Positions 8,101 to 37,106 of a stretch of DNA of 64,000 nt are shown here, in pieces. A program made the translations under genes and the position numbers. Origin of the DNA: Rhodospirillaceae bacterium (GTDB taxonomy: Bacteria; Pseudomonadota; Alphaproteobacteria; Rhodospirillales; Rhodospirillaceae); the NCBI GenBank assembly GCA_947476695.1, contig CANJRD010000004.1, positions 124,001 through 188,000 of the forward strand, read 5' to 3'. The notes below the pieces were generated by a model, which was given only the letters and a program-made list of their open reading frames with translations, searched no databases and was not told the origin of the DNA. The first letter of the stretch is position 1, and each line of letters begins with the position of its first letter.

Positions 8101-8279
8101 TCAACCACTTCGGCCGCCGCGCCCGGATAGTTCACGTTCACGCTGACGACCGGACGGTCGACGTTCGGCGTCTCGCGCACCGGCATCTGAGTGAGTGAAT
8201 AGAGCCCGAATACGCAAAGCATCAGGCTCGCCACGATCGCGACGACAGGTCGACGCACCGAGAAGTCAGAGATAACCAT
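5148..8279 (-). CDS. RND efflux pump permease (HAE1 family), second system
   Basis: Full-length 1043-residue proton-driven RND transporter. The N-terminus MVISDFSVRRPVVAIVASLM is the first helix. The helix-4 proton-relay pair is present in GLVVDDAIIMLEN, and two porter loops and twelve predicted helices fit the family. The large second periplasmic loop contains seven consecutive glycines encoded by a GCC/GGC trinucleotide run at 6444-6464, an unusual feature. It is not a close copy of the pump at 1-2762 and belongs to a different subgroup (starts with ISDFSVRRPV rather than SKPFIDRPIA). It lies 33 bp downstream of its adaptor, in the same operon. The substrate cannot be told from sequence. 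Confidence 0.95.
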   Translation of the reverse strand: MVISDFSVRRPVVAIVASLMLCVFGLYSLTQMPVRETPNVDRPVVSVNVNYPGAAAEVVETRVVKLLEDQISGIAGIKSITAFARDGNGWLNIEFTESRSIDLATNDVRDQVSKVLSRLPRDADPPSISKADPDAEPILFVSLTSSKRSPLDLTEYGMLTAGPQLTTIDGVANVWYGGARKKAMRLWLDRRAMAARGLTETDVETALLKENLELGAGILESKDRFFTMRTVRSFQTPAQFAQLVVARGPNNYLVRLGEVANVELGAVDPYSQSRINGRVSLSIGVVKQPGASTIDVAKRIRTAIENMKRTAPSDIEFSIHSDNSVFISQALHEVSIAGGIAAILVMAVIYLFLGTFRAALIPAVAVPISLIGAAIVMWASGFSINILTLLAMVMAIGLVVDDAIIMLENIHRHMQMGEPPLLAAKRGARQVGMAVVSTTLVLASVFMPVALLRGTVGSLFREFAMSLAIMVLFSLFVSLTLTPVMCSKILKAEFDHSPVSQWTENAFARFTAFYRRNLERALDHSRFVMAGFVGVLVVCVGLFALLPQEFTPREDRGSFNIQVRPPEGASADYTARQVNAIYEGLKQHLETGEVVTLMENVQSPVGGGGGGGNVYVGMADWDNRKRSVQTFSQSLIPLFQNIPGAQIASNLPAALGLNGGGYGNVQMVVGGPTYDELRKWRDLLMDGLQGNPKFLQVRNNFVETKPQVKVVIDQARAGDLGVSMQTIGQTLAGMMGSRRVTTFFDQGEEYDVMIQGQTEDRRTPNDVSNIYVRSDTTKQLVPLSNVVKLEEAGAAASFNRYNRHRSFMLNVYPRTDVPLADVIAELERVVAERLPSTAEINWRGEAGDYKDNSMAIYFTFGLALVVAFLVLAAQFESFVHPMVVMMTVPLATAGALAGLLLFGQSINLYSQIGMIVLVGLAAKNGILIVEFANQLRDEGREFREALIEASLTRLRPIVMTALATVMGALPLIIATGAGSEGRRPIGVVIFAGVSFATLITLFVIPTFYMLFARRTSSPGQLAEEIRAQEAAFGAKIASEQPAE
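6444..6464. repeat. Trinucleotide repeat (GCC)7 inside the RND pump gene
   Basis: Seven perfect GCC units on the plus strand encode Gly7 in a periplasmic loop of the pump. Such runs can slip during replication in steps of one codon without breaking the frame, so glycine number may vary between strains. Confidence 0.8.
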
Positions 8280-8312
8280 CGCTCGTCTCGTTTATTGCGG
8301 ACGCCGATTTGG

Positions 8313-9473
8313 TTAGGGCGCGACGTCCTGGGATAACTGCTGCGTCTTGGGATCGACGGCTTCAGCGGGGTTGGAGACGCGCACGGGCGCGTTCTCCGGC
8401 AGGTCCTGCATGCCTTCGACGATGACCACGTCGCCTTCGCTCAGGCCCGAAAGAACTTCAACGAGGCCCGCGCGCCGCGCGCCGATCTGGATCGCGACCT
8501 TGTGCGCGGTGCTGGCCGTGGTGACCACGTAAACGAACTGCGTGGTGTTCTCCGGCTGCAACGCGGCTTCGGGCACGACGATCGCTTGACGCTCGTCCTT
8601 GATCAGGTCGGCGACCATCAGCATGCCGGGGCGCAGGCGCAGATCGGGGTTGGGGATTTGCGCACGCACGGACACAGACCGCGTGACCGGGTCTATGCGC
8701 GTGTCGATCGAGGTGACTTCGCCCCTGAATTTGACCTTCGGATAAGCGCTGACTTCGGCTTCAACCGTCAGGCCCGGCTTCAGCGCGGCGAGGAAGCTTT
8801 CCGGTACCTGCAGGTCGAGCTTCATCACCGACAGATCGTCGAGGGTGGCAACCGGGGTGCCCGGCGATACAAGCGCGCCGAGGCTGATGCGGCGCACGCC
8901 GACGATACCTGAGAATGGCGCGGTGATGCGGCGGTCGCCGGCGCGCACGCTCGCGGCGGCCATGTTGGCCTCCGCTTTTTTCACGGCCGCCTGCAATTCA
9001 TCGACGCGCGATTGAGAGACGTGCTGCTTCTTGACCAGCTCCAGCGTGCGCTCCAGCTCGCGTTCCTGCTGTTGCAGGTTCGCGGCTTCCATGCGGACCT
9101 GGGCGTTCTGCTCGCCCGCGTCGATGGAGGCGAGTTCGTCGCCTTTCTTCACAAGCTGCGAGTCTTCGAAGGTCAGCGTGCGGATGATGCCTTGGGTCTT
9201 TGCCGTCAAGGTGACGGACTCATTCGCCATCAGGGTGCCGATGGCTTCGATGTGATCGGCGAAGGGCGCGGCATGCACCTGTTCGACTTTCACCAGGCGC
9301 GTGCGCTGCCCGCGGCCTTGGCCGCGCTGCGCACCTTTGTCTGAGCCGACAAAGGTCCACGCGCCGGCCGCGCCGAGCGCCAGAACCACGCCAGCCGCTA
9401 TGAGAACGTTGCGACGCAAGTTGCTTATGTCTTTCCAACCAGAGCGATCTTGCGGGGGCAGGATCGCCGACAC
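8313..9473 (-). CDS. RND efflux periplasmic adaptor, second system
   Basis: A 386-residue membrane fusion protein. The most upstream start is a GTG at 9473. No nearby ATG offers a better alternative, because the next hydrophobic segment (NVLIAAGVVLALGAAGAWTF, about residues 23-42) must be retained for membrane anchoring. Then come a short Gly/Arg/Gln-rich linker, a lipoyl half-motif (ANESVTLTAKTQGIIRTLTF), a coiled-coil hairpin (QQQERELERTLELVKKQ region), the second half-motif and a beta-barrel. It forms an operon with the pump at 5148-8279. A TetR-type operator-like palindrome lies 10 bp upstream of the start, so repression by a regulator encoded elsewhere is likely. Confidence 0.93.
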   Translation of the reverse strand: MSAILPPQDRSGWKDISNLRRNVLIAAGVVLALGAAGAWTFVGSDKGAQRGQGRGQRTRLVKVEQVHAAPFADHIEAIGTLMANESVTLTAKTQGIIRTLTFEDSQLVKKGDELASIDAGEQNAQVRMEAANLQQQERELERTLELVKKQHVSQSRVDELQAAVKKAEANMAAASVRAGDRRITAPFSGIVGVRRISLGALVSPGTPVATLDDLSVMKLDLQVPESFLAALKPGLTVEAEVSAYPKVKFRGEVTSIDTRIDPVTRSVSVRAQIPNPDLRLRPGMLMVADLIKDERQAIVVPEAALQPENTTQFVYVVTTASTAHKVAIQIGARRAGLVEVLSGLSEGDVVIVEGMQDLPENAPVRVSNPAEAVDPKTQQLSQDVAP

Positions 9474-25417: not shown

Positions 25418-26905
25418 CTAGGTCGCGAGTGGGACCCGCACGGTGACGCTGAGGCCGCCGATCTTGCGGTTTTCCGCTTCCACGCTGCCGCCCATGGCGA
25501 TGGCGTTCTGGCGAACGAGCCACAGCCCGATGCCAAAATGCATTTCCGTCGCACCCTCTTTCGAATCCGTCGAAGGGCGCGACGAATAATAACGTTCGAA
25601 GATGCGCGCCAGGCGGTTGGCGTCGACGCCGGGACCTTCGTCCTCGACCTTCAGGACGGCCATGCCATCTTTCGCCTGCAACTGGACGCTTACGAAACCT
25701 TCCGTTGGCGAGAAGCTGACCGCGTTGTCGACCAGGTTCTCGAGGATCGTTTCCAGCAAATCGTCGCGTCCGCGCACGACGATGTCGGGCGCCACGTCGA
25801 TCTTCAGCATCTCCTGGCGCAAGCCGAGCATCAGGCGGTAGTCGTCGGCGAAGGCTTTGGTCAAGGCGGAGAGATCGACCTTGGCATAGCCGGTTTCGAG
25901 CATGTCCGCCGTCGCGGTGTCGAGGCGCTGGGCCGAACGCACCAGGCCCTCGAGGCGGTCGCACGAAGCGGTGATCGCGGCGACGCCCATGTTGCCTTCG
26001 CCACTTTCCGTGACGCGTTTGCCGACCAGCTCCACGGCCTGGCGGATCACCGCGATGGGGCCCTTGAACGCATGCGCGTTGTCCTCCGCGGCTTGGCGCA
26101 GTACATCGGTGGCGCGCTTCAGGCGCGAGACCATGCCGTCGAACTCGCGGCCCACCTGCGCAAGTTCCGGCACGCCGGACGCGGTAGCGAAGCTCCGTCC
26201 CTGGCCCTGTTCGACTTGGGCTGCGGCCTGACGAAAGCCGGACAGCCCGGACCACACGGCCGCGAAGATCAGGAAGACCAGCACCGCCATCGTCGCATAT
26301 ACGGCGATGGCCATGGGCGCTTCGGGTCGCTGCCAGTAGGGGCGGTCGTCGATCAGCCGCGTGACCGTATCTGTACTGGCGGCGACGATCACCGCCCAGC
26401 ATCCGCGCGCGCTCTGCACCGGCGTGACCGAGGTCAGCACTTCGCCGCTGCCGTCAGGCAGCGTCACGCGATCACCGAGCGGCATATTGCCGGAACAACT
26501 GGCCGCGAGCCGGTCGAGGATGCCGAGTTCCTTCAGGCGGTCGTGTTCCTGATCGAGATCGGTGAAAGGCACCGGCGGCGAACTGCCGACATAAAAGAAG
26601 CTGGTGCTGCCGGTCGGGCCAAACAGCACTTTGATTGTGCGGGCATCGGCATTGAACCGCGCCAGTTCGTCCTGGATCTTGGCGAAGTCAGCGGGCGCCA
26701 GCGTTTTCAGGAACGGCTCCATCGCCGTACCGATCAGGCGGCCGTTCTCGCGCACGGCGTCCAGCAGCAGCGCCTGCTTCTCCTGTTCGGCCGAACGGAA
26801 CACGGAATACAGCAGGATCGGCGGTACGACGAAGACGAGGACGAGCGCCACTAACTGCACGCGGATGGAACGTGAGAACCGCGCGAGCGCGGTCGCGCGG
26901 GTCAT
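25418..26905 (-). CDS. Sensor histidine kinase
   Basis: A 495-residue inner-membrane kinase with helix 1 (VQLVALVLVFVVPPILLYSV) and helix 2 (AIAVYATMAVLVFLIFAAVW). They enclose a periplasmic sensor of about 165 residues containing two cysteines. A HAMP-like linker follows, then the H-box AEDNAHAFKGPIAVIRQAVE (the conserved His is followed by AFKGPI instead of the usual ELRTPL). N-box ILENLVDNAVSFSP, G1 VEDEGPGVD and G2 HFGIGLWLV are all intact. Its ATG overlaps the response-regulator stop by 4 bp. Its regulator is frameshifted, so signal output of this locus is in doubt. Confidence 0.93.
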   Translation of the reverse strand: MTRATALARFSRSIRVQLVALVLVFVVPPILLYSVFRSAEQEKQALLLDAVRENGRLIGTAMEPFLKTLAPADFAKIQDELARFNADARTIKVLFGPTGSTSFFYVGSSPPVPFTDLDQEHDRLKELGILDRLAASCSGNMPLGDRVTLPDGSGEVLTSVTPVQSARGCWAVIVAASTDTVTRLIDDRPYWQRPEAPMAIAVYATMAVLVFLIFAAVWSGLSGFRQAAAQVEQGQGRSFATASGVPELAQVGREFDGMVSRLKRATDVLRQAAEDNAHAFKGPIAVIRQAVELVGKRVTESGEGNMGVAAITASCDRLEGLVRSAQRLDTATADMLETGYAKVDLSALTKAFADDYRLMLGLRQEMLKIDVAPDIVVRGRDDLLETILENLVDNAVSFSPTEGFVSVQLQAKDGMAVLKVEDEGPGVDANRLARIFERYYSSRPSTDSKEGATEMHFGIGLWLVRQNAIAMGGSVEAENRKIGGLSVTVRVPLAT

Positions 26906-27680
26906 GCGTTGAGGTCCTGACTATCCCAGCGATAGCCGAAGCCCGGATAATTCTTCAGGGCGTCGAACTGCGGATCGATGTCACAGAACTTGCGGCGGAT
27001 GCGTTTGATCGCCGCGCGCACGTTGGCGCGATAGCCTTCGGGCCCGCGGCCGCCCACGAATCCCATGTCCTGGATGACGTCGTAAATCTGACGATAGGAC
27101 ACGTCGGTGCCTGCCTTGGACGACAGCAGCGCGACCACGTCGAACTCGCCCATGCTCAGCGGCACCTGCGGGCCGCGCCAACAGGCGCGCTTGGATTCAT
27201 GGTCGAGCTTCAGTGCGCCGATCTGTTCGTCGCGCGCCTGTGCGGCGGTGGCGCGCTCGGCCGGGGTGGTGATCAGCCGCTCCAACCGCTTGAGAATGAC
27301 CCTGAGGCTGCGCGTCTTGTCGACATATTCGACGGCGCCGTGCTCGAGCGCCGTCTCCTCGAACAGCGGCTGGTTCATCGAGGTCAGGAACATAACATCA
27401 CCGGCGCGGTGAAGTTGCCGGCCTTCAGGCGCCGCAAGAGATCGAGGCCGTCCATCTCGGGCATTTGCCAATCGAGCACGCAAGCGTCGGGTTGCGGGCC
27501 TTGCAGCAGCTTGGCCAACGCCTCATCCGGTTTGGTGAACACCGTCACGCGATAGCCCGCACTTTCGATGTTCGCGGCGAAGGTGCGCAGGAACAGCACA
27601 TCGTCGTCGACGATCACGACGTGCGGAGCTTGCTCCCGCGCTGCGGGCTGCGGCGACGGGGCGATGGTCTCAACTTGCAT
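26902..27680 (-). pseudogene. OmpR-type response regulator split by a 5-bp tandem duplication
   Basis: Start at the ATG 27680 (AAGG eight bases upstream). The first part is a receiver domain: VVIVDDD acidic pocket and phospho-acceptor Asp70 in ACVLDWQMPEMDG. It stops at 27384 right after NFTAPVM. The remaining receiver (FLTSMNQPLFEETALEHGAV, with Lys in EYVDKTRS) and a winged-helix DNA-binding domain (LSMGEFDVVALLSSKAG to GFGYRW) continue in another frame to 26902. At 27389-27398 the plus strand reads AACAT twice; removing one copy restores a perfect receiver. An ATG at 27393 inside the duplication could restart translation, giving two half-proteins. The downstream kinase is intact. Confidence 0.85.
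27389..27398. repeat. 5-bp tandem duplication (AACAT)2 breaking the response regulator
   Basis: Two adjacent AACAT units fall between conserved receiver residues M and FLTS. One unit would leave the reading frame continuous; two shift it and give TGA after three codons. The copy number change is a simple reversible slip in principle. Confidence 0.85.
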
Positions 27681-28119
27681 GGCCGGCCTTGATTCGCTGG
27701 AGGCATTGCTGTTCGGCACGGGCGCTGCCGTCCGTGCCGGTGACTTTATGGTCGATGGCGAACATGTCGTTACGCACGACGTCGAACAGGAACAGCACTT
27801 CGACGCTGCAGCCTTGGGCGCGATACACCCAGGCCTGGCCGGGATTGCGCTCGGTGCGCTGGGCGGGTTCGCCCAGCGTCCGCGTCAGTTCGCCTCGCGA
27901 CAGACCGGCGACGACAATCGGCGTTGTCGGTGTTGTCGCGGGCGGTGCGGTCGCGGGCTTAGGTTTCGGTTTGGGCGGCGGCGGCTTCATCGCCGGCGGG
28001 GGCGCCGGTTCAGGCGGTGCCGTGACCTGTTGCACGGGCGGCGGCGGGACGTGTTTCGGCGTTTGGCAGCTTGCCAGCCCAAAGGCGGCGAGCATCAACA
28101 CGCTCAGGTGACGTTTCAT
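27670..28119 (-). CDS. Proline-rich lipoprotein with SmpA/BamE-like tail
   Basis: A 149-residue lipoprotein. The ATG at 28119 gives MKRHLSVLMLAAFGLASC, a signal peptide with lipobox LASC; upstream codons in the same frame lack such sense. A 45-residue Pro/Lys/Ala linker (PPPP, PKPKPKP) is followed by a compact domain, LSRGELTRTLGEPAQRTE and QAWVYRAQGCSVEVLFLFDV. This resembles the small SmpA/OmlA fold (similarity judged by eye). The gene overlaps the start of the response regulator by 11 bp and so belongs to the two-component operon. It may act as an envelope sensor component. Confidence 0.75.
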   Translation of the reverse strand: MKRHLSVLMLAAFGLASCQTPKHVPPPPVQQVTAPPEPAPPPAMKPPPPKPKPKPATAPPATTPTTPIVVAGLSRGELTRTLGEPAQRTERNPGQAWVYRAQGCSVEVLFLFDVVRNDMFAIDHKVTGTDGSARAEQQCLQRIKAGHAS

Positions 28120-28259: not shown

Positions 28260-28970
28260 TTACGGGCGCCAGCGATAGCCCAGCCCGGCCTGGTGCTCTA
28301 GGCTGCTAAAGCTCTGATCTACAACAAGGAATTTCTGCCGCAGACGCTCGGCCGCGGCGCGCACGATCATGCGATAGCCTTCGCCTGTCGTACCGGGGGC
28401 GAATAAATCGTCCTGAACCGCGCGGAAGATCTCGCGGTAACTCACCGTGACCCCGGCCCCTGCGGACAGCAGCGTGGCGATGGCGAATTCACCGCGGCTC
28501 AAGGTGAGCGCCCGGCCCCGCCACAGCACGCGCCCGGCGGTTTCGTCCACATCCAGCGGTCCAACGTGGAAGCCGCGCAGGCTGGGCAAGGTTTCACCGG
28601 TCACGCGTGCGAGGTGGCGGAGGATCACCGCCGGCGGCAGCGTCTTTGCGATCGCATCCGTGCCGGTCTCGGTGGACGGCGCGCCTTCCGGGGTCATCAG
28701 CACGATGGGACCGGTGTACCCGATCGAGCGCAGCGCCCGGGTCATAGAACCGTGATCGCGCATCGCGGCCCGCAGTTCGACCAGCACTGCGGCGGGCCGC
28801 ATGCCCTCGAACCAGCCGGCGAGGATGGCCTTCGTTGTGGTGAACGTCGCCACGCGATAGCCGCCCCCACGGATGTTGGCGGCCAGCGTATCGAGGAATA
28901 GCGGGACATCGTCGACCAGCGCGATTTGCGGCGCAGAGCACACGGTCTCGTGTTTCAAAGCTTCTGCCAT
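28260..28970 (-). CDS. Degenerate response regulator with Glu at the phospho-acceptor site
   Basis: A 236-residue paralogue of the split regulator. The ATG at 28970 has GAGGA eight bases upstream. The receiver keeps the acidic pair (ALVDD, residues 20-21), the Thr of VLMTP and the Lys of AIAKT. The phospho-acceptor Asp is Glu65 (AAVLVELRAAM), and the usual MPxMDG is lost. Glu here often mimics the phosphorylated state, so constitutive or signal-independent activity is likely. The C-terminal winged helix is complete (LTLSRGEFAIATLLSAGAG to GLGYRW). It lies 140 bp upstream of the lipoprotein-regulator-kinase operon on the same strand. Confidence 0.85.
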   Translation of the reverse strand: MAEALKHETVCSAPQIALVDDVPLFLDTLAANIRGGGYRVATFTTTKAILAGWFEGMRPAAVLVELRAAMRDHGSMTRALRSIGYTGPIVLMTPEGAPSTETGTDAIAKTLPPAVILRHLARVTGETLPSLRGFHVGPLDVDETAGRVLWRGRALTLSRGEFAIATLLSAGAGVTVSYREIFRAVQDDLFAPGTTGEGYRMIVRAAAERLRQKFLVVDQSFSSLEHQAGLGYRWRP

Positions 28971-29180
28971 CGGCGCGTCCTCTTTCCATCCTGGATGAGC
29001 GCGTTGCCCTTCGCACTTACTTCTTTCCCGCCCGATCCGCTCGAAACCCGAACGTGACAATTTGAGGCCTGCGCGGAGCGCGTGTGACAAAGATGGCGCC
29101 TGCGTTGCCTATTGGTTGCGAACGGCGTTTGCTTGCCGTGCGGCTGATGCACCGCGACGCTGCTTAAACAGGAGACGATT

Positions 29181-29408
29181 TTGACGCCCACGACTGCAAA
29201 GTTCGCCAAGTTCGGTGTGATCGCGATGTTGGCGCTGTCTCTCTGCGGCTGCAGCAACATGACGCGTCAGCAACAGCGCGCCCTCAGCGGCGGCGCGATT
29301 GGCGCGGCCGGCGGCGCGCTCTTCACGGCGGTGGTGGGCGGTCCCGTGCTAGTCGGTACGGCCGTGGGCGCGGCGGCGGGTACAGCCGTGGGTGCCATGT
29401 CGAAATAG
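29181..29408 (+). CDS. Glycine-zipper small lipoprotein (TTG start)
   Basis: A 75-residue protein starting with TTG at 29181; AGGAG lies seven bases upstream and no ATG is placed so well. Signal peptide with lipobox LCGC, then a glycine zipper (GGAIGAAGGALFTAVVGG and GTAVGAAAGTAVGA). Such proteins insert into or coat the outer membrane. A paralogue lies at 36740-37048; the two share 29 identical bases over the first zipper turn. Divergent from the degenerate response regulator. Confidence 0.75.
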   Translation: MTPTTAKFAKFGVIAMLALSLCGCSNMTRQQQRALSGGAIGAAGGALFTAVVGGPVLVGTAVGAAAGTAVGAMSK

Positions 29409-29710
29409 AATGTCGAAATAGAACTTTGGGAGCGGCGTCGAACCACGCCTCTCCCCGGCGAAGACCTCATCGACGGCCTCACCCGCCGATGAGGTCGTCA
29501 GCGCCGAGATTGAGAAACGCCTGTCACTCAGCACGTGCGCCCCAGCCTCCCGTGCTGAGTGACTAGCGTGAAGCCCCGCCGCTCCTGTGGTCGGCGGGGC
29601 TTCCTATTTTCGGGGCGATCGCGCAGACCGCGTTGTCGACGGTGATCTTCGCAGCGCGCGGAACAAATGCCTGCGTTCCGGCGCTCCGATTGCGGAAGCT
29701 GGAGGTTTTC
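29409..29710. other. Intergenic region with three consecutive hairpins
   Basis: 302 bp without a convincing gene. Three inverted repeats follow each other: 29463-29496 (10-bp arms plus an inner extension), 29523-29563 (13-bp perfect arms, 15-base loop) and 29570-29603 (12-bp perfect arms, then CTATTTT). The last is a rho-independent terminator on the plus strand. The whole may be the 3' end of the lipoprotein mRNA or an independent structured RNA of about 150 bases. Confidence 0.6.
29570..29603 (+). terminator. Rho-independent terminator
   Basis: A perfect 12-bp stem (29570-29581 with 29592-29603), a 10-base loop and the downstream tract CTATTTT. It ends transcripts from the lipoprotein gene or from the structured region before it. 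Confidence 0.8.
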
Positions 29711-30031
29711 ATGGCTCGTTTTTCCGAACCGACCGATCACGATGCGCGTGTGAGTGACCGCGCCTATCACATTTGGAAACAGGAAGGCTGCCCCGACGGG
29801 CGCGCCGACGTTCATTGGGACATGGCGCGCGAACTCGTGGCCATCGAGGAGAATCAAAGCCTCGCCACCAAGCCGAACCCGCAGCGCTGGGATGTCCGTC
29901 GCGATCCGAGCACCGGCGAGCCGGTCGAGCCGCTCATGGCGGTCGCGAACCAGGGCGAGTTCCCAACGCTGACGGACCAAGGCGAAGAACAAAGCTATCC
30001 GCAGCCGCGAGGTCCGACGGCGCCGCGTTAG
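29711..30031 (+). CDS. DUF2934 domain protein
   Basis: A 106-residue soluble protein. The ATG at 29711 follows GGAGG by five bases; a longer open frame from 29633 is unsupported. The N-terminal DUF2934 motif is visible: RVSDRAYHIWKQEGCPDGRA then DVHWDMARELV. The tail is polar and proline-rich. The family is widespread in soil proteobacteria with no known function and is often stress-linked. Its stop overlaps the end of the convergent glycosyltransferase by 4 bp. Confidence 0.8.
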   Translation: MARFSEPTDHDARVSDRAYHIWKQEGCPDGRADVHWDMARELVAIEENQSLATKPNPQRWDVRRDPSTGEPVEPLMAVANQGEFPTLTDQGEEQSYPQPRGPTAPR

Positions 30032-31074
30032 CTAGTGCCCAAGGCCTCTGCCACGATCCGCGCGGTGTCATCCCAACGCGGAAGCTTGTCGACAGCTTCG
30101 CGCGCGCCGATGCCCATGCGGGCTCGTAGGCCTGCGTCCCCGATAAGTCTCGCGAGAGCCTCGCGTAGCGCATCGGGTGACTGCGGCGGTACCAGAATGC
30201 CGGCCTCGGGCGGCACGACTTCCGGAACCGCGCCGGCGGCGCAGCCTATGACGGGCACGCCGTGGGACATGGCTTCCGCGAAGGCCATGCCAAACCCTTC
30301 GTGCAGCGACGGAAGCACAAAGATATCGGCGTTGCGATAAAACAGACTGAGCTGCGCGGGCCCGACCGCATCCATGAACACGATGTGTTCACCCAGTCCA
30401 TGCGCCAGGACCGCCGCGTAAACAGCGCGCGCGTGGACGCTGTCGCGGTCGCGGCTGCCAACGAACGTGCAGCGCCACGACAAATGCCGCAGCCCGCCGA
30501 GCGCCGCGATCAGATCGAGGTGCCCCTTGCGCGGCGTCAGCGTGGCGACGGTCAGCAGCGAGACCTCGGATGTCGGCGACTTGGGTGGTCTCATAGCGAC
30601 GAGGTCGGTGCCCGGCTGCGCGACCGTGATATTGTCCGCAGGTACGGCATAATCGCGCGCTAGCGACGCGGCAGTGTGGTGGCTGGTGCAGATCACATGG
30701 CGCGTGCGAGCCAAGGCCGCGCGTTCGCTGTCCCTGAAGGCGCGGCGCATCGGTTCGGTCAATCCGCTTTCGTCCGCGAGCGGGTGATGAACAAGCGCCG
30801 TATAGCCGCGGGCGCGCGGCTTCAGGATGTCCGCCGGCAATGCACCGAGGGCAAGGCCGTCGATCACCAAGGGCGTATCGTCCGCTACGTCCGCCAAGGC
30901 GGTGGCCGTATCGGCCACGTCCTGCGACGTCGGATACGGATAACTCCCCGGCAATGCGATCACGCGCGCCTGCCAACCGTGGGCGTGCAAGGCGGCGATC
31001 AGCCGGCGGGCATAGACGTACCCGCCGGTCGCTGTCTCAAGGTCGCCGGGGATCGCGAACGCGAATTCACGCAC
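30028..31074 (-). CDS. Glycosyltransferase family 4, last gene of the seven-gene operon
   Basis: A 348-residue GT-B enzyme. The C-terminal Rossmann domain has the nucleotide-sugar EX7E motif in LPSLHEGFGMAFAEAMSHGV, preceded by LLTVATLTPRKGHLDLI. A GTG start at 31074 overlaps the upstream gene by 8 bp, so it is translationally coupled. No signal or membrane helices: it acts on the cytoplasmic face. In this context it may glycosylate the small-molecule or lipid product of the operon. Donor and acceptor are unknown. Confidence 0.9.
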   Translation of the reverse strand: MREFAFAIPGDLETATGGYVYARRLIAALHAHGWQARVIALPGSYPYPTSQDVADTATALADVADDTPLVIDGLALGALPADILKPRARGYTALVHHPLADESGLTEPMRRAFRDSERAALARTRHVICTSHHTAASLARDYAVPADNITVAQPGTDLVAMRPPKSPTSEVSLLTVATLTPRKGHLDLIAALGGLRHLSWRCTFVGSRDRDSVHARAVYAAVLAHGLGEHIVFMDAVGPAQLSLFYRNADIFVLPSLHEGFGMAFAEAMSHGVPVIGCAAGAVPEVVPPEAGILVPPQSPDALREALARLIGDAGLRARMGIGAREAVDKLPRWDDTARIVAEALGTS

Positions 31075-31474
31075 GCGGAACGTCGGCTTCGTAAGAAGCG
31101 CGCGCGATGTGGGATTCGTTCAGCGTCACGCGCAAGCGGCTGATGCCTTCGCTATAGGTCCCGAACTTACCGTCGCGCAGTTCGTGCGTGACCTGGTCGA
31201 ACACCCAGCGCGCGATCGCTTCGGTGGTGGAGCGCTTGCCTTTGAAATCCGGATGTTCATCCAGGTTGGCGAAATTCAGCTTGGAGAGAATCTCCTTCAC
31301 CAGATCGCTGGCGCGCCCGATGTCGACCACGATGTCGTTGGGGTCGAGTTCGGCGCGCATAAAGTTCACATCGATCACATAGGTCGCGCCGTGCAGCTTC
31401 TGCGCCGGGCCAAACACAGCCCCCGCCAGGCTGTGGGCGATCATTACGTGATCACGGATTTCAACGGCGTACAT
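31067..31474 (-). CDS. 6-pyruvoyltetrahydropterin synthase/QueD-like protein with altered active site
   Basis: A 135-residue T-fold protein; ATG 31474 has AAAGGAG seven bases upstream. The family acts on 7,8-dihydroneopterin triphosphate. Compared with QueD/PTPS, His14 (IAHSL) is kept, but the HGH zinc pair reads His28-Gly-Ala (KLHGATY). The position of the catalytic Cys four residues before it is Ala/Gln (PAQKLHG). The Asp-His region is NLDEHPDF and the late Glu remains (NESHIARASY). One zinc ligand and the nucleophile are therefore missing, and the canonical reaction is unlikely. Embedded in the seven-gene operon, it probably binds a pterin-like substrate for different chemistry. Confidence 0.85.
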   Translation of the reverse strand: MYAVEIRDHVMIAHSLAGAVFGPAQKLHGATYVIDVNFMRAELDPNDIVVDIGRASDLVKEILSKLNFANLDEHPDFKGKRSTTEAIARWVFDQVTHELRDGKFGTYSEGISRLRVTLNESHIARASYEADVPRA

Positions 31475-31484
31475 GGCAGCTCCT

Positions 31485-32435
31485 TTAATAACGCAGCACG
31501 GTCATAAGGCCGGTCGAGCCGGCCAGCGCCGCGGGGACTTTGGCGGGGGCGTCGTCAAACGCGATCTCGCCGGTGATGAAACGGTCGAACAGGGGATCGG
31601 CGAGCAGCGCGAGCGCTATACCGATCCGGCGCGCATAGCTCCAGCGCGGCGCGCGCGCGGCGGGGATGCTGCCGACTTGGGATGAAATGAGTTTCAGGCG
31701 GCGCTGGTGGAAGCCTTCGCCCAGCGCGAGCGGCACTTGCGTTGCGCCATACCAGCTGGCCTCGACCACGGTGGCTTCCAGGCCGGCGCATTCAAGGGCT
31801 AGCGCCAAGCCTTGCGGCGCGGCGCTGGCGTGGATCACCACGTCCTGATCGCGCGGGGCCTCATCGGGGGCGGCATAGGTCGCGCCGAGGGCGACGACGA
31901 TCTCGCGCCGTTCGGCGAGGGGATCGACCACCGTGACTTGCGTGCCGGGCATGCGCGCGGCGAGGGCTGCGATCAGCAGGCCCAACACGCCCGCGCCAAT
32001 CACCAGCACCTTGTCGCCCGCGCTGACGCCGCTGTCCCAGATCGCGGTCAGCGCCGTTTCCATGTTCGCCGTCAGCACCGCGCGTTTGGCCGGCACGTTC
32101 GCCGGCACGGTATGCAGCGCCTCCGCCGGCAACGCGGCCTCGCGTTGGTGCGGATGCAGCGTGAACACGATCTCACCAGCGCGCGGCCCGTCGATCACGT
32201 TGCCGACCAGGCAATAGCCGTACTTCACAGGGAAGGGGAAGGCGCCTTCCTGGTGCGGGCAGCGCATGCGGTCGTATTCCGACGCGGGCACGCGGCCATT
32301 CAGTACCAGGCGCTCTGTCCCACGGCTCAAGCCGGAGTACAGCGCGCGCAGGCGCACCCCGGTGCCGACGGCGCCTTCGCGCAGTTCGGCTTTGCCTTCG
32401 CCGACGTACCAGAGGGCCGAGGCGGTGCTGCTCAT
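31485..32435 (-). CDS. MDR-superfamily dehydrogenase lacking zinc ligands (BchC-like)
   Basis: A 316-residue medium-chain dehydrogenase/reductase. The ATG at 32435 overlaps the stop of the upstream RibD-like gene (ATGA), which decides the start over one five codons upstream. The nucleotide-binding motif is VIGAGVLGLLIAALA. In the catalytic domain the usual zinc cysteine is serine (SGLSRGTE) and the GHE histidine is absent (VKYGYCLVG). This is the pattern of the BchC-like 'zinc-binding' group that has lost zinc. It probably oxidises or reduces an alcohol or carbonyl of the operon's intermediate with NAD(P)H. Confidence 0.85.
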   Translation of the reverse strand: MSSTASALWYVGEGKAELREGAVGTGVRLRALYSGLSRGTERLVLNGRVPASEYDRMRCPHQEGAFPFPVKYGYCLVGNVIDGPRAGEIVFTLHPHQREAALPAEALHTVPANVPAKRAVLTANMETALTAIWDSGVSAGDKVLVIGAGVLGLLIAALAARMPGTQVTVVDPLAERREIVVALGATYAAPDEAPRDQDVVIHASAAPQGLALALECAGLEATVVEASWYGATQVPLALGEGFHQRRLKLISSQVGSIPAARAPRWSYARRIGIALALLADPLFDRFITGEIAFDDAPAKVPAALAGSTGLMTVLRY

Positions 32436-33241
32436 GCGCGCAGATCGCAATCGCAGAGAAGATCGTCGCCGGGCAGGCGGAACGCGCGTATCGCCGGGCG
32501 CAACGCGTCGCGCAAGTGATCGATGGGCGGCAAGGCCAGACCCGGAATGCCGGACCCGATGATGATCGGCGCGATCAGCAGGTGCAGGCGATCAATCGTA
32601 CCGGCCGCGACAAAGCGCGACAGGGTGTTCGGCCCGCCTTCGATCAGGATGCGCTTGCAGCCCTGCGCCGCCAGCGCCGCGATCACATCGCGCGGGTCCA
32701 AACCCCCGTCGCGGCTGGGGATCAAAAACTCCTCGACGCCTTTCGGCACCGGCCGCGACGTGCTGCGGATGACAAGACGCCGCGCACCGTCCGCCGCGAG
32801 GCATTTGGATTCGCTCGGCAAGCGCCCGTTGGGATCGAGGATCACGCGCATCGGATCGACGCCGTCCGCGTGGCGCACGGTCAGCTGCGGATCGTCCGCG
32901 AGTGCGGTGCCGACGCCGATCACCACCGCGTCGCTCAAGGCGCGCAGGCGATGCAAATGCGTCAGGGCCGCCGGACCGTTCACGTAATGGGAGTGACCGT
33001 TTTCCGTCGCGACACGCCCGTCGAGCGATTGGCCGATCTGGCCGATCACCAACGGTTGTGCGGTCGCTTCGATCAAAGGGCCGTAGACCGACCACAACGC
33101 GCCGGCGGACGCAGCGGACGCGTCGCCGCGCGCGGCCGCCAGCACGGCGGACCAGTCGGCGCTTTCCCAGTCGAGGATTTCGGCAACGTCCATGAACGAT
33201 CGGTTCTCGCGAAAACAGGCGGCGTTTATCGGCTTGGCCAT
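32432..33241 (-). CDS. RibD C-terminal-domain reductase family protein
   Basis: A 269-residue protein (253 if it starts at the ATG 33193). After about 63 extra N-terminal residues comes the dihydrofolate-reductase-like RibD_C fold: IGQIGQSLDGRVAT, LRALSDAVVIGVGTALADDP, DPMRVILDPNGRLP and RILIEGGPNTLSRF. RibD/ArfC enzymes reduce the ribosyl chain of a diaminopyrimidine phosphate with NADPH. The deaminase domain of bifunctional RibD is absent, so this is the stand-alone reductase form found in the archaeal riboflavin/F420 route. It overlaps the creatininase gene by up to 16 bp. Confidence 0.88.
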   Translation of the reverse strand: MAKPINAACFRENRSFMDVAEILDWESADWSAVLAAARGDASAASAGALWSVYGPLIEATAQPLVIGQIGQSLDGRVATENGHSHYVNGPAALTHLHRLRALSDAVVIGVGTALADDPQLTVRHADGVDPMRVILDPNGRLPSESKCLAADGARRLVIRSTSRPVPKGVEEFLIPSRDGGLDPRDVIAALAAQGCKRILIEGGPNTLSRFVAAGTIDRLHLLIAPIIIGSGIPGLALPPIDHLRDALRPAIRAFRLPGDDLLCDCDLRA

Positions 33242-33981
33242 GGGGCGGCGGCAAGCTCATTCACCAGCGTGTTGAGCTTATCGGCGGCATGGTTCGCCAG
33301 CTTGTGACCGATCTCGGCCGTTCCCAGCTCGGGATTGCCGATCCAGCTGCCGCCCAGATCGTCGCTGCGCCACCCCCAGGCAATCGGGCCCGCGGGCGAC
33401 AGCAGCGGCGAGGGCGGCCGCGCCGGCTGGGCGCGCGCGGTCTTCATATCAACGAGCGTCGGCGCGAGATGCAGCATGACGGCGGTCTCTACCCAACCAC
33501 CGTGCACATCGGCACGCACCGGCGTCGGCGGCGTCAGGTCGGCCGGCAGACCGAAGTCGAGCCAATGCGCGTGCGCGGCCAGCATGTCGAACCGCGTGCG
33601 CAGTTTCAGGATGGCGATGCGCGCCAGCGCGATGTTGCCGCCATGGCCGTTGAACAGCACGATGCGCCGCGCGCCGGCGCGATGCAGCCCTTTGCCGATC
33701 TCGACGATCTGCGCGATCAGCGCCTCGGGTTCGGTGCTCAGGGTGCCGGCGTTATGCGCATGCTCGGCCGACGCGCCCAGCCACAACAGGGGCAGGCGCA
33801 GCATGGTCGTGGGGCCGGTGTGCCGCTCCGACGCGCGGTCGAGCAACAACTCGGCAATCGTCCCATCGGTGCCCAGCGGCAGATGCGGCCCATGGCTCTC
33901 CATGGCGCCGAGCGGCAGGATCACGACAGTATCCGCGCTCAAGACGACCGGTTCGCGCAAAGCGGAATATGTGGTGAACAT
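33226..33981 (-). CDS. Creatininase/ArfB-type metallo-amidohydrolase
   Basis: A 251-residue creatininase-family protein. Metal-site motifs are clear: LPLGAMESHGPHLPLGTD (Glu, His, Asp ligands), LFNGHGGN and, later, VHGGWVETAVML. The family includes creatininase, the mycofactocin peptidase MftE and archaeal ArfB, which deformylates a formamidopyrimidine made from GTP. Pairing with a RibD-type reductase next door is exactly the ArfB-ArfC combination, which argues for an aminopyrimidine-like substrate here. The start directly abuts the stop of the membrane sulfatase-like gene. Confidence 0.9.
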   Translation of the reverse strand: MFTTYSALREPVVLSADTVVILPLGAMESHGPHLPLGTDGTIAELLLDRASERHTGPTTMLRLPLLWLGASAEHAHNAGTLSTEPEALIAQIVEIGKGLHRAGARRIVLFNGHGGNIALARIAILKLRTRFDMLAAHAHWLDFGLPADLTPPTPVRADVHGGWVETAVMLHLAPTLVDMKTARAQPARPPSPLLSPAGPIAWGWRSDDLGGSWIGNPELGTAEIGHKLANHAADKLNTLVNELAAAPWPSR

Positions 33982-35532
33982 CTAAGGCCCCGCACTAAAG
34001 GTTTCGGCCAAGCGTGGGCGCAAGCTGTCCATGCGGATGACCGGGCTCGCGTCGTCTGGCTTCATACCGGCGGTGAGATTCCATGTATCGAGGCGCGCCA
34101 GCACTGCCGGGTCGCGCGCGATAATGTGCATCGGTACTTCACGCGGGGCCTCCTCGCCGCTGATGAAGCCCATCGGCTGATGATCGCCGAGGATGATCAA
34201 CACGGTGCGCTCGGTGGCATAGGTCAGCGCGAAGGATTCGAGCGTAGCAAGATCGTAAGCGATCGACTTGCCGTACTGCGCGCGCACGGCGTCGGGATTG
34301 GCCCAGATTTTTTCCGCGCTTTCGCCTTCGCGCGCCTGATCGAACACGCGGCCGTCGCCGACTTGATCCCAGGGCACCAGCTTCGGCAGGGGCGTCCACG
34401 GCGCATGGCTGGAGACGAGGGCGGTCACAGCCATAATCGGCGGGCGATCCGCTTTGGTCAGCTCGCGCGTCGCCAGCTGCGACAGCGTGAACTGGTCGGG
34501 CATCGTGACATAGCCAAGCGGCGCGCCGCCGAACTTCAACGCATTCGCGTCGTAGGTCACATCCGCGCCGTAGTAGCGCCCCTGCGGCCAGTCCGTCGTG
34601 ATCTCGGGCTGCACCATCACCGAGCGCCAGCCGGCGCGGGTGAAGTCGTGCATCAGTGTCGGGCGCGTGCTGCCGGTCAGCGCGATGTAGCGCCGCTGGT
34701 TCTCGATCCACAGGCCCGACAACAGCGTGCTGTGCGCGAACCAGCTTTCGCCGCCGAAGGTGGGCGATGTCACCCAGGCGCTACGCGTGCCGAAACCGGC
34801 CTCGCCCAGGCGCGCGGTGATGGCGTCGAGTTGTTGGCCGATGTCGCGATAGCGCGGATCGTCCACCGCGACGCGCCCGTATGATTCCACGAACACGATC
34901 AGGACGTCGTGATTGCGCAAGGCGGCGAACACTTTGTCGTCGGCGACGCCGGCGACGGGATCGTGGGCGAGTTCCTTGCTGAAGGTCGCCGTCTCGCGCA
35001 GCCCCGCGATGGTGATCTGCGTCTGCTCGGCCAGAAGGTGCGCGCTATGTTGCGTGCCCCAGGGCAGCCATAGAAGCGCAAGGCCGACCGCCAGCGCACC
35101 CAGCGCCGCGGGCTTCGGTCGTGCCGGCGCATAGGCCAGGCGCCGCAGGCTCGTACCGATCAGCCAGCCGAGAAGCGCGACGGCGACGAGCACGCCCGCC
35201 ACGGCTCCCAGTGCGAATATCAGGCTGTGGCTGCGCACCAGCAGGTCCCACCCGGCAGCCATCAGCGGCAGATCGACGCCGGCATCGAAGGGCCGGTCGA
35301 ACGCGACATAGATGCCGCTGTTGGCGGTCTTCAGAATGAGCACGAGCACGATCAGTGCGGTGAACACCGGCAACGCGCGACGGCGCAGCGGGATCGGCAT
35401 CGCCCACAGCGCCGCGAGCATGAGCGGCAGTTCCACCGCGAGCCCAAGCCGCGGCCAGTCGAAGATCCAGACGTGATCGGGCAAGGACAGGATGATGTCG
35501 AGCATCAGGAACGCGAGACCGGTCGCGATCAT
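33982..35532 (-). CDS. Membrane-anchored sulfatase/phosphotransferase-like enzyme (alkaline phosphatase superfamily)
   Basis: A 516-residue protein with four or five N-terminal transmembrane helices (residues 1-160) and a C-terminal extracytoplasmic catalytic domain. The metal-site Glu is in IVFVESYG. The nucleophile region is SPTFGGESWFAHSTLLSG (Ser/Thr as in LtaS/EptA-like enzymes). His is in SSHAPW, and Asp-His in ILGDHQPMG. Such enzymes move phosphoglycerol or phosphoethanolamine between lipids and glycans, or hydrolyse sulfate esters. A transferase acting on a membrane lipid fits best with the CDP-alcohol phosphatidyltransferase encoded 3 bp upstream. Confidence 0.85.
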   Translation of the reverse strand: MIATGLAFLMLDIILSLPDHVWIFDWPRLGLAVELPLMLAALWAMPIPLRRRALPVFTALIVLVLILKTANSGIYVAFDRPFDAGVDLPLMAAGWDLLVRSHSLIFALGAVAGVLVAVALLGWLIGTSLRRLAYAPARPKPAALGALAVGLALLWLPWGTQHSAHLLAEQTQITIAGLRETATFSKELAHDPVAGVADDKVFAALRNHDVLIVFVESYGRVAVDDPRYRDIGQQLDAITARLGEAGFGTRSAWVTSPTFGGESWFAHSTLLSGLWIENQRRYIALTGSTRPTLMHDFTRAGWRSVMVQPEITTDWPQGRYYGADVTYDANALKFGGAPLGYVTMPDQFTLSQLATRELTKADRPPIMAVTALVSSHAPWTPLPKLVPWDQVGDGRVFDQAREGESAEKIWANPDAVRAQYGKSIAYDLATLESFALTYATERTVLIILGDHQPMGFISGEEAPREVPMHIIARDPAVLARLDTWNLTAGMKPDDASPVIRMDSLRPRLAETFSAGP

Positions 35533-35535
35533 GTT

Positions 35536-36252
35536 TTACGCCGCCGTCCGTGCGGCGCGCGCACCGGCTTGCCAGACAATGTCGGTGCCGAAGGAATAGA
35601 GCAGCAGTGCCAGCGCGGCGGCGGCGTAAAGGCTGCTGGCCGGTGGAACGATCAGCGGCGATGTCAGCGCGACCAGCACGCTGCCTTGGATGGCGGCGAC
35701 CAGGCGACGGCGCTGCGAGGGGAATAGCGGCTCGCGCAGCGTCGGAAACACGTATGACGCGGCGACAGCGAGGTAACGTGCTGCCCCGCTCATTAACACC
35801 CAGGCGCCGGCCTTGCCGGTTTTCCAGGCGGCGATCGACAGCACCAGGATCACCAGCGCATCGACTTCCATGTCGAAGCGTGCGCCGAAGGCCGAGGCTG
35901 TGCCGGTCTTGCGGGCGACCCAGCCGTCGACGAAATCGAGCAGCAATGCCGCGACGCCGACGGTGAAGATCGCCGTGCTTTGCAGGCTCGTGGGTTCAAA
36001 CCCGCTCAACAAGGCGGTGACGTAGCCCGTGAGCAGGCAGGCGATGGTGAGACGCGTCAGCGTCACCGCGTTGGCGAGGCCGAAGCCTGAGACGAGGGCG
36101 TCGGCGCGCCGCAGGATCAGCAGGCCCGCCGTGAGGTACGCACCGCCCGCGCCGACCAGAAATGATACGCCCAGCCCAACGCGCAAGCTGGCGATCGACG
36201 CCAAGGCAAGCGCAAGGGCTCCGAACGCAAGGGGTAACGCGGCGGGGTTCAC
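35536..36252 (-). CDS. CDP-alcohol phosphatidyltransferase, first gene of the seven-gene operon
   Basis: A 238-residue integral membrane enzyme with six or more helices. It carries the full family motif D-x2-DG-x2-AR-x8-G-x3-D-x3-D, seen as LDFVDGWVARK through FGARFDMEVDA (about residues 106-129). It should transfer a phosphatidyl (or similar) group from a CDP-linked lipid to an alcohol. Its start is a GTG at 36252 with weak SD. A 199-bp divergent promoter region separates it from the zinc-ribbon gene. The alcohol acceptor is unknown; the downstream genes may supply it. Confidence 0.9.
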   Translation of the reverse strand: MNPAALPLAFGALALALASIASLRVGLGVSFLVGAGGAYLTAGLLILRRADALVSGFGLANAVTLTRLTIACLLTGYVTALLSGFEPTSLQSTAIFTVGVAALLLDFVDGWVARKTGTASAFGARFDMEVDALVILVLSIAAWKTGKAGAWVLMSGAARYLAVAASYVFPTLREPLFPSQRRRLVAAIQGSVLVALTSPLIVPPASSLYAAAALALLLYSFGTDIVWQAGARAARTAA

Positions 36253-36451
36253 GAGAGCGGATCCGGGCGGTGGGAAAGAAAGCCGATTCTACCGTGCCGT
36301 GTCGGCAGGGACTAGGAGCGGGCTGGCGCCTGTCAGAGAATTTACGGCCCTGCCGGCGCGCTGGATCACTTGAAATCGAGGCTCATCTGCCGACGTCCGT
36401 AACTCCGCGCGCCGGGCCGCATTCGTCCTACGACGATCACAGGAGGCGGCC

Positions 36452-36676
36452 ATGGCGATCTGCGAAAAATGCGGCAACGACTACCCGAAGTCCTTCGAGG
36501 TCGTGCTCGCTGGCCAAACCCACACGTTCGACTCTTTTGAATGCGCCATTTCGGCCCTGGCGCCGACGTGCGGCCAGTGCGGCTGTCGAATCATCGGCCA
36601 TGGTATCGAAAAATCAGGGAAGTTGTTCTGTTGCAACCACTGTGCGGACGCGGTTTACGCCCAGGCCGCAAGTTAG
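36452..36676 (+). CDS. Small cysteine-rich zinc-ribbon/metallothionein-like protein
   Basis: A 74-residue protein with AGGAGG just upstream of its ATG. Nine cysteines occur in groups: CEKC near the N-terminus, one in FECAI, CGQCGC in the middle, and FCCNHC near the end, plus histidines at HTFDSFEC and IIGHGIEK. The spacing suggests two zinc ribbons. The family is common in proteobacteria, sometimes called prokaryotic metallothionein, and its role is not established. It is expressed divergently from the seven-gene operon. Confidence 0.75.
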   Translation: MAICEKCGNDYPKSFEVVLAGQTHTFDSFECAISALAPTCGQCGCRIIGHGIEKSGKLFCCNHCADAVYAQAAS

Positions 36677-36739
36677 CCGCGCGACATTGTCCCGGTCGCT
36701 GCGTTCTAGGACTGAGTTTCCGATAACGGGAGATATCTG

Positions 36740-37048
36740 ATGAATATTCGTATGGCGATTGCGCCGGCTTTGATTGCGACGTTGGTCCTTTGCGGCTGCG
36801 GTTCCGATCCGGGCGGTCGCGCCCTCAGCGGCGGCGCGATTGGCGCTGGCGCGGGTGTCGGCGCGGCGGCGATTCTTGGCGCGCCTTTGGCGGCCGGTGC
36901 GGCTGTCGGCGCGGTGGGCGGTGCGGTGATCGGCGCCGGTACGACCCCGGGCGCAGGCGAGCGTCGCTCGGAACGTCGTGGTGAACGCCGTGACGCCTAC
37001 GAAGACGGGTACACCGACGGCGCGAAAGACGAGCGCTACGGCCGCTAA
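36740..37048 (+). CDS. Glycine-zipper lipoprotein with charged tail
   Basis: A 102-residue protein; GGGAG lies nine bases before the ATG. Signal peptide with lipobox LCGC, then a long glycine zipper (GGAIGAGAGVGAAAILG, then GAAVGAVGGAVIGAG), and a hydrophilic tail ERRSERRGERRDAYEDGYTD. It is a paralogue of the lipoprotein at 29181-29408, with 29 identical bases including RALSGGAIGA codons, but adds the charged tail. It ends in a strong terminator. Confidence 0.8.
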   Translation: MNIRMAIAPALIATLVLCGCGSDPGGRALSGGAIGAGAGVGAAAILGAPLAAGAAVGAVGGAVIGAGTTPGAGERRSERRGERRDAYEDGYTDGAKDERYGR

Positions 37049-37072
37049 GACTTAGCGCTTCGGCGCGAAGCG

Positions 37073-37106
37073 AAGGGCGTGCATGGGATTTCCCGTGCAC
37101 GCCCTT
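37073..37106 (+). terminator. Rho-independent terminator
   Basis: An 11-bp stem (37073-37083 with 37096-37106) with an inner GGGA/TCCC pairing, followed by TCCTTTTTG on the plus strand. It separates the glycine-zipper gene from the convergent DUF3096 gene. Confidence 0.85.

Follow-up and report, generated by a model that had tools for sequence, protein, structure and literature searches.

A recurrent two-module gene cluster around a PTPS-IV protein, found in a Rhodospirillaceae bacterium and beyond, points to a candidate pathway to a GTP-derived, glycosylated compound

We describe a compact operon in a 64,000-nucleotide stretch of DNA from a Rhodospirillaceae bacterium (the window; G000:C4:124001-188000, i.e., contig 4 of the 3.9-Mb source genome), together with the wider gene cluster that surrounds its PTPS-IV protein. 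Seven open reading frames (ORFs), all on the minus strand and tightly packed, occupy positions 30028-36252 (Table 1), as a first-pass annotation had already described. In transcription order, a 3-bp gap separates the CDP-alcohol phosphatidyltransferase (CDP-OH) gene from the sulfatase-like gene, which directly abuts (0 bp) the creatininase gene; the creatininase and RibD genes overlap by 16 bp, a 10-bp gap lies between MDR and PTPS, and PTPS and GT4 overlap by 8 bp. The RibD/MDR overlap is 19 bp with the listed TTG start (32450) and 4 bp (ATGA) with an in-frame ATG at 32435, which is most likely the MDR start. Thus, the 16-bp ceiling that had been claimed for gaps and overlaps holds at every junction except RibD/MDR, where it depends on the preferred ATG. 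The family names proposed for the seven genes agree with our domain searches: Pfam supports GT4, PTPS, RibD_C, creatininase and CDP-OH, the MDR matches lie under the Pfam cut-offs (the best being to ADH_zinc_N), and the sulfatase-like protein, for which there is no Pfam match, was placed by its fold. A promoter and terminator scan of 29300-37100 was at background (two promoter-like signals vs 1.0 expected; five terminator-like signals vs 4.6).

Table 1. Genes of the minus-strand operon in transcription order, with the basis of each assignment
Product	Module	Coordinates	Strand	Basis
CDP-alcohol phosphatidyltransferase	lipid module	35536..36252	-	PF01066 E 3.1e-14; motif DxxDGxxARx8GxxxDxxxD intact
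Putative membrane-anchored alkaline-phosphatase-superfamily transferase, LtaS/LtaP/GacH/EptA fold (sulfatase-like)	lipid module	33982..35532	-	predicted structure match
Creatininase-family amidohydrolase	putative accessory to pyrimidine/pterin module	33226..33981	-	PF02633 E 1.4e-58
RibD_C-type reductase, stand-alone, deaminase domain not found		32432..33241	-	PF01872 E 1.2e-39
MDR-superfamily dehydrogenase, BchC-like		31485..32435	-	ADH_zinc_N E 9.1e-7, below cut-off; BchC model 51.2 bits
PTPS-IV protein (FGPAQ)		31067..31474	-	PF01242 E 1.5e-22
GT4-family glycosyltransferase		30028..31074	-	PF00534 E 4.3e-30

The PTPS protein of the window reads FGPAQKLHGATY: the Cys of the CxxxHGH motif is missing, as is its second His (HGA vs HGH), and the Glu of NESH near the C-terminus is retained. 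Its FGPAQ signature places it in PTPS-IV, a subgroup of COG0720 for which a 2017 study reports PF00925 and PF01872 neighbours (node 62, 561 sequences; PMC5445326). It lacks the CxxxHGH that defines QueD and PTPS-I, and the QueD model gives 44.9 bits against a cut-off of 89.25. Canonical PTPS or QueD chemistry is not supported by these residues, the catalytic Cys and one zinc His being missing; for the same reason, action on dihydroneopterin triphosphate, which had been ascribed to this protein in the first-pass annotation, cannot be assumed. HGAT occurs in every bacterial PTPS copy with its N-terminal half available, one of which has FGSAQ instead of FGPAQ; the Haloarcula PTPS belongs to a different subgroup, without FGPAQ. 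Plasmid records mostly annotate PTPS-IV genes as ‘6-carboxytetrahydropterin synthase’.

We then asked how these genes are distributed across 120 genomes of the order and 398 genomes of the phylum (Pseudomonadota). In the order sample, the cut-offs were E <= 1e-5 for PTPS, E <= 1e-15 for MDR and E <= 1e-8 for an S-adenosylmethionine (SAM) methyltransferase (MT) whose query came from a relative’s cluster. The window PTPS matches 13 of the 120 order genomes, and MDR and MT match the identical 13; in the phylum sample, PTPS and MDR match the identical 27 of 398, which fall in 20 of 213 genera and are not independent of each other. This set identity holds at the cut-offs used: one other genome (G044) carries an MT fragment at a contig end, which scores 63 bits by profile and is not among the matches listed in the MT search. 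Since the PTPS and MDR genome sets are identical in both samples, the seven genes are not a chance grouping. Distances among PTPS, MDR, GT4, MT and RibD also correlate (Pearson r 0.56-0.71); this lends the cluster only mild support, because species relatedness is uncorrected. PTPS relatives were not found in viral contigs by a pattern-based search that reaches close relatives only, and viral spread was set aside within that limit.

The other genes are less strictly bound to this core. CDP-OH matches seven of the order genomes, six of them in the cluster and one weakly and off-cluster (G048), and 19 of the phylum genomes, 15 of which are among the 27 with PTPS and MDR, two of these off-cluster (G135, G456). 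The sulfatase-like gene is found in seven order genomes (six of the 13, plus G044), and creatininase in 23, ten of which lie outside the 13. The creatininase matches, more numerous than the 13 with PTPS, and the commonness of the GT4, creatininase and CDP-OH families would favour a mere loose grouping of genes with housekeeping or unconnected roles; we consider that explanation most improbable, because the shared genome sets of PTPS and MDR, and an MDR-PTPS-GT4-MT order conserved in distant lineages, contradict it for MDR, PTPS, MT and GT4, though not for creatininase or the sulfatase-like gene. The neighbourhood survey and phylogenetic profiling that had been proposed for this operon, with rare co-occurrence as the ground for abandoning a common pathway, came out in favour of a common pathway for PTPS, MDR and MT, whose genome sets are identical.

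The composition of the cluster was read from two collections of loci. In the phylum sample, 26 PTPS-IV loci other than that of the window were counted over whole 12-19-kb stretches: MDR is present in 26, GT4 in 25, MT in 24 (fusions counted) and RibD in 22; then follow CDP-OH and MdoH (12 each), the PF03706 flippase and RibA (11 each), an FkbM-type methyltransferase (8), cytochrome b561 (7) and creatininase (6). The PF00925 and PF01872 neighbours of PTPS-IV are thus both represented in the sample (RibA and RibD, respectively), the window itself having only RibD. The second collection comprises 45 loci from the order sample, named GTDB loci, plasmids (13 of the 14 retrieved from 21 PTPS plasmid records) and the window, with duplicates L009 and L010 removed and several loci cut by contig ends. 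Within 9 kb, these hold MDR in 42, GT4 in 41, RibD in 33, RibA in 22, CDP-OH in 21, creatininase in 20, MdoH in 15, the sulfatase-like gene and cytochrome b561 in 12 each, and the flippase in 8; MT, counted anywhere in the stretch, is present in 37.

A further observation concerns the methyltransferase, which is absent from the window operon and lies beyond the window on the same contig (G000:C4:232301-233062; 51% identity to the query). GT4 and MT are fused as one ORF in seven loci of three genera (three loci in g175, three in g185 and one in g39), which reflects at least two, perhaps three, events; the fusion directly links a gene of the operon to the gene that is missing from it. A fold search with MT gave no hint of substrate, since its matches were all class I methyltransferases, of diverse types (best 3mgg, TMq 0.63). 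The seven-gene order of the window recurs identically in one other locus (L039). By annotation or scanning, we found the cluster in Methylosinus (M. trichosporium OB3b), Streptomyces, Haloarcula, Rhizobium, Thiodictyon, Microbacterium and Agrobacterium and, by profile, in Halomonas, Thioalkalivibrio and a Kofleriaceae metagenome-assembled genome, the last without GT4 and MT; judged by gene content, the putative pathway occurs in bacteria of several phyla and, altered, in one haloarchaeon.

The cluster splits into a pyrimidine/pterin module (module A) and a lipid module (module B). In the latter, the CDP-alcohol phosphotransferase of the window carries its signature motif in full: DFVDGWVARKTGTASAFGARFDMEVD. 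The predicted model of the sulfatase-like protein (mean pLDDT 81, weaker in the membrane part) has helices to about residue 189, which are probably membrane-embedded, followed by a region (residues 202-516) that resembles LtaP. Foldseek searches match about residues 180-516 to lipoteichoic-acid synthases, GacH and EptA/MCR; the best fold match is LtaP 4uop (VIA Z 21.8, root-mean-square deviation 3.9, 269 aligned), and E216, T258, D450 and H451 are invariant among nine sequences. We therefore describe it as a putative LtaS/EptA-fold headgroup transferase, a designation predicted from the model.

Associations among the envelope genes were tested, with relatedness uncorrected, in 56 of 71 loci; the 15 with less than 7.5 kb on a side were left out. 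Of the 18 loci with a flippase, 17 also contain CDP-OH (Fisher p 1.3e-6). CDP-OH and MdoH are negatively associated: both are present in 5 loci, one without the other in 22 and 17, and neither in 12 (Fisher p 0.003). OpgH (MdoH) is a frequent cluster neighbour, and homologues of OpgG (MdoG) are found close to the cluster or the lipid module in L040, L063, L067, L074, L080, L081, L083, L089 and L090; these neighbours suggest a link to periplasmic glucans.

We also observed the lipid module on its own. Four genomes of the phylum sample, all of family f43 (G300, G325, G355, G393), have CDP-OH with no PTPS or MDR match; in each, CDP-OH, the sulfatase-like gene, the flippase and GT4 form a separate run, and three of these runs also have a gene labelled cytochrome b561. 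In all four, an ATP-binding cassette (ABC) importer with an NMT1/THI5 binding protein (PF09084, E 1.7e-36) lies between the flippase and GT4. The closest solved relative of its binding protein with a named ligand is 3ix1, a formyl-aminopyrimidine binder (E 6.4e-8); 4nmy ranks higher, with no ligand named. No such binding protein was found in the retrieved PTPS-IV loci (tblastn E <= 1e-3). In a further genome of the same family (G456), the two modules occupy two places (L085, L093), and GT4 immediately follows the flippase. The importer-bearing operon is also plasmid-borne in Dinoroseobacter shibae (pDSHI05), Paracoccus, Tateyamaria and Alloyangia, strains of which the analysis covered the plasmids.

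This modularity bears on an explanation that we regard as a serious but unlikely contender, namely that the product of module A is a soluble pterin or aminopyrimidine, which is methylated, glycosylated and exported, and that the lipid genes serve a separate envelope function (a glycolipid, or decoration of OpgGH glucans) that often travels beside it. Rhodobacteraceae SC52 has a minimal MDR-PTPS-MT-RibD cluster without lipid genes, the lipid module is also found without PTPS and MDR, and the envelope part varies, as the negative association of CDP-OH with MdoH attests. On the other hand, GT4 occurs in both modules and is a core member (41 of 45 and 25 of 26 loci) that is fused to the core MT in seven, and in the four genomes with the lipid module only, module A is replaced by an importer from a family with pyrimidine-binding members. 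As side observations, PfkB-type sugar kinases flank minimal Rhodobacterales clusters (L054, 9831-10751; L058, 13994-14884), and L058 also has an inositol-monophosphatase-like gene (8168-8971).

Turning to the enzymes of module A, the window reductase belongs to the RibD_C superfamily (PF01872, 136.7 bits vs a gathering score of 24.1), and it scores 372 bits with the cluster RibD profile, vs 125 for a RibD-like ORF in another locus (L053) of the same genome. Creatininase and stand-alone RibD had been taken for the ArfB-ArfC pair, and the curated models do not bear this out: the reductase reaches 92.1 bits with the ArfC model TIGR01508 (cut-off 186.45), and the creatininase 22.9 bits with the ArfB model NF033501 (cut-off 180). 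A plain ArfB/ArfC reading was rejected on these scores. The creatininase motifs of the window protein are GAMESHGPHL, NGHGGN and DVHGGWVET.

The source of the pyrimidine would be GTP cyclohydrolase II (GCHII, RibA), in which we take a Met at the site that is Tyr105 in E. coli RibA to mark a formylaminopyrimidine (FAPy)-forming enzyme, and Tyr the deformylating type. We fixed the position on the E. coli chain 2bz0 and read the S. globisporus residue by eye as Met. Tyr is present in 31 of the 34 readable RibAs of PTPS loci, Met in two (both Streptomyces clusters) and Leu in one, a divergent GCHII-like protein of an Acuticoccus cluster (L033, from 13586); the count omits L009 and L010 (duplicates of L023 and L028), the PTPS-less loci L052, L053 and L095, and an unreadable fragment (L065). 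Both Streptomyces clusters have creatininase beside the Met-type RibA, which fits a formyl-pyrimidine plus formamidase there. The RibA of the window genome (L052) has Tyr and so, by this rule, is not of the FAPy-forming kind; a formamidase role of the alphaproteobacterial creatininase is unsupported by this switch residue. The window genome has a separate RibA (at G000:C1) and a RibBA-like gene, i.e., two GCHII-domain genes, neither in the operon. Of 39 genomes searched, 19 have a RibA in the cluster, and each of these carries one or more additional GCHII-domain genes, RibBA being counted as such.

RibA, RibD_C and creatininase are all riboflavin-pathway families, and the genes could be read as an ArfB/ArfC-like branch, alternative to the usual one, of riboflavin or F420-type synthesis that supplies the flavin of the cell, the nearby lipid genes being unrelated. 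A creatininase-family formamidase, BrbF (Sinorhizobium SMc02977), deformylates the GTP-derived formylaminopyrimidine in riboflavin synthesis (PMC9478397), so that an ArfB-like role for our creatininase is possible by analogy; a 2016 paper mentions, as unpublished work, that PTPS-IV acts in archaeal F420 synthesis (PMC5041015). We nevertheless find such a branch distinctly unlikely: the window genome retains its separate RibA, RibBA-like gene and second RibD-like ORF (L053), the distribution (27 of 398) is patchy, unlike that of a vitamin route, MDR is an obligate partner with MT and GT4 near-constant, and the ArfB and ArfC models stay below cut-off.

Bearing in mind the observed gene content, strict co-occurrence, fusion, residues, predicted fold and modularity, we lean, without great assurance, towards an undescribed two-module pathway to a GTP-derived, glycosylated and often lipid-anchored compound, for which we infer every reaction, the order and the product. 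The presence of RibA, a RibD-type reductase and a tunnel-fold protein that binds rings suggests that GTP is converted to a 2-amino-4-oxo-pyrimidine. On chemical grounds, a ribosyl chain that is first reduced and then oxidised would allow the ring to close to a dihydropterin with no need for GTP cyclohydrolase I. The combination of GT4, CDP-OH, the flippase and the LtaS/EptA-fold enzyme suggests that the compound is glycosylated, anchored to a lipid and decorated in the outer leaflet. In module A, GCHII (here most likely the separate RibA) would convert GTP to 2,5-diamino-6-ribosylamino-pyrimidinone phosphate, the RibD-type reductase would turn the ribosyl into a ribityl chain, and the MDR enzyme would oxidise the latter, so that its condensation with the 5-amino group could form a dihydropterin-like ring. 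By binding the 2-amino-4-oxo ring, PTPS-IV may direct closure or rearrangement, the SAM methyltransferase encoded outside the operon would add a methyl group, and creatininase would cleave an amide, in the Streptomyces version perhaps a formamide. In module B, glycosylation would fall to GT4 and transfer of a phosphatidyl group to the CDP-alcohol transferase; on the periplasmic side, a phospho-headgroup would be added or removed by the LtaS/EptA-fold enzyme. Many relatives also carry a PF03706 flippase or cytochrome b561, or have an adjoining OpgH.

In a bolder form, which we hold to be possible rather than probable, the product would be a new lipid class: a methylated, glycosylated tetrahydropterin (or ribityl-aminopyrimidine) on a phospholipid, made by a GCHII-reductase-MDR-PTPS-IV route that replaces GTP cyclohydrolase I, and serving with cytochrome b561 as a redox- or light-active cofactor of the envelope. 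It would occur in several bacterial phyla and, altered, in some haloarchaea, and non-makers would import a precursor by the dedicated ABC transporter.

Several points weigh against the two-module pathway. The step order comes from chemical reasoning, the product and activities are our inference, and the MDR, GT4 and MT families span wide substrate ranges. CDP-OH, the sulfatase-like gene and creatininase are absent from many clusters, and four of the 19 CDP-OH genomes have neither PTPS nor MDR. Genome-wide profiles cover PTPS, MDR, MT, CDP-OH, the sulfatase-like gene and creatininase; GT4 and RibD were counted in loci only. One genome (G062, locus L095) lacks PTPS and MDR but has creatininase, RibA and RibD of the cluster type, and another (G044, L094) has the sulfatase-like gene, creatininase, RibD and the MT fragment with no PTPS match. 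Seventeen of the 31 Tyr-type RibA loci also hold creatininase, for which a formamidase role gives no explanation. Two of four retrieved Streptomyces plasmid loci (from six Streptomyces plasmid matches) hold PTPS-IV alone. The importer genomes all come from one family, Qingshengfaniella has a sugar-type ABC transporter in the importer’s place and no GT4, and NMT1 proteins bind many ligands, non-pyrimidines included. The earlier idea of a single GTP-derived pyrimidine/pterin and lipid/glycan pathway survives in part: PTPS, MDR and MT co-occur and GCHII is a common neighbour, but three of its supports are lost or weakened, namely the ArfB/ArfC assignment, the PTPS chemistry and, given those absences and the separate lipid genes, the seven-gene set as an indivisible whole. 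No described pathway with this gene set was found in a literature search with little coverage of subscription journals, in line with what the first-pass annotation had stated.

PTPS-IV is a named but unexplained branch of an often mis-annotated family, and it now has a fixed partner set and a modular logic. An importer in place of synthesis is a natural experiment within the cluster family, and the question of PTPS-IV function becomes directly testable by label tracing in common laboratory strains. If the product is indeed a pterin-bearing lipid, it would represent an unexpected lipid class and a second route to a pterin-type ring.

Two neighbourhoods deserve a brief record. The stand-alone PTPS-IV genes of the Streptomyces plasmids (L059, L060) have cupin, metallo-beta-lactamase-fold and regulator genes as neighbours. 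In the window, a minus-strand response regulator (26902-27719) appears by eye to be split by a frameshift into overlapping receiver (27384-27719) and winged-helix (26902-27483) parts in different frames; beside it lie a probable histidine kinase gene (25418-26905) and another gene that resembles a regulator (28260-29090).

Finally, we compare the cluster with known systems. The toxoflavin pathway (GCHII, RibD and methyltransferase) has as its starting compound the GTP-derived pyrimidine proposed here and also involves a methyltransferase; it is not known to include PTPS-IV, MDR, GT4 or lipid genes. The sulfatase-like protein shares its predicted fold (VIA Z 19.4-21.8) and invariant Glu, Thr, Asp and His with LtaS/LtaP, GacH and EptA/MCR; its identity to the LtaS/LtaP/GacH chains is only 13-15%. 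The closest solved sequence to the window PTPS is SCO6650 of Streptomyces coelicolor (PDB 3d7j, E 8.6e-37), with the same FGPAQxLHGAT. According to the Spoonamore papers, SCO6650 reportedly lacks zinc and PTPS activity, and the GCHII SCO6655 is said to give a formylated product. The published PTPS-IV node resembles the window in FGPAQ and the RibD_C neighbour; the section of PMC5445326 that describes the node names two neighbours only, applies the label FolE2 to PF00925, which is in fact the GCHII family, and gives no pathway. BrbF is likewise creatininase-annotated and alphaproteobacterial, and differs in that it serves riboflavin synthesis (PMC9478397). Like the cluster, the archaeal ArfA-ArfB-ArfC branch combines a GTP cyclohydrolase with a metal-dependent amide hydrolase and with a RibD_C-type reductase that stands alone; what distinguishes the cluster, beside its sub-threshold ArfB and ArfC scores, is its constant company of MDR, MT and GT4.

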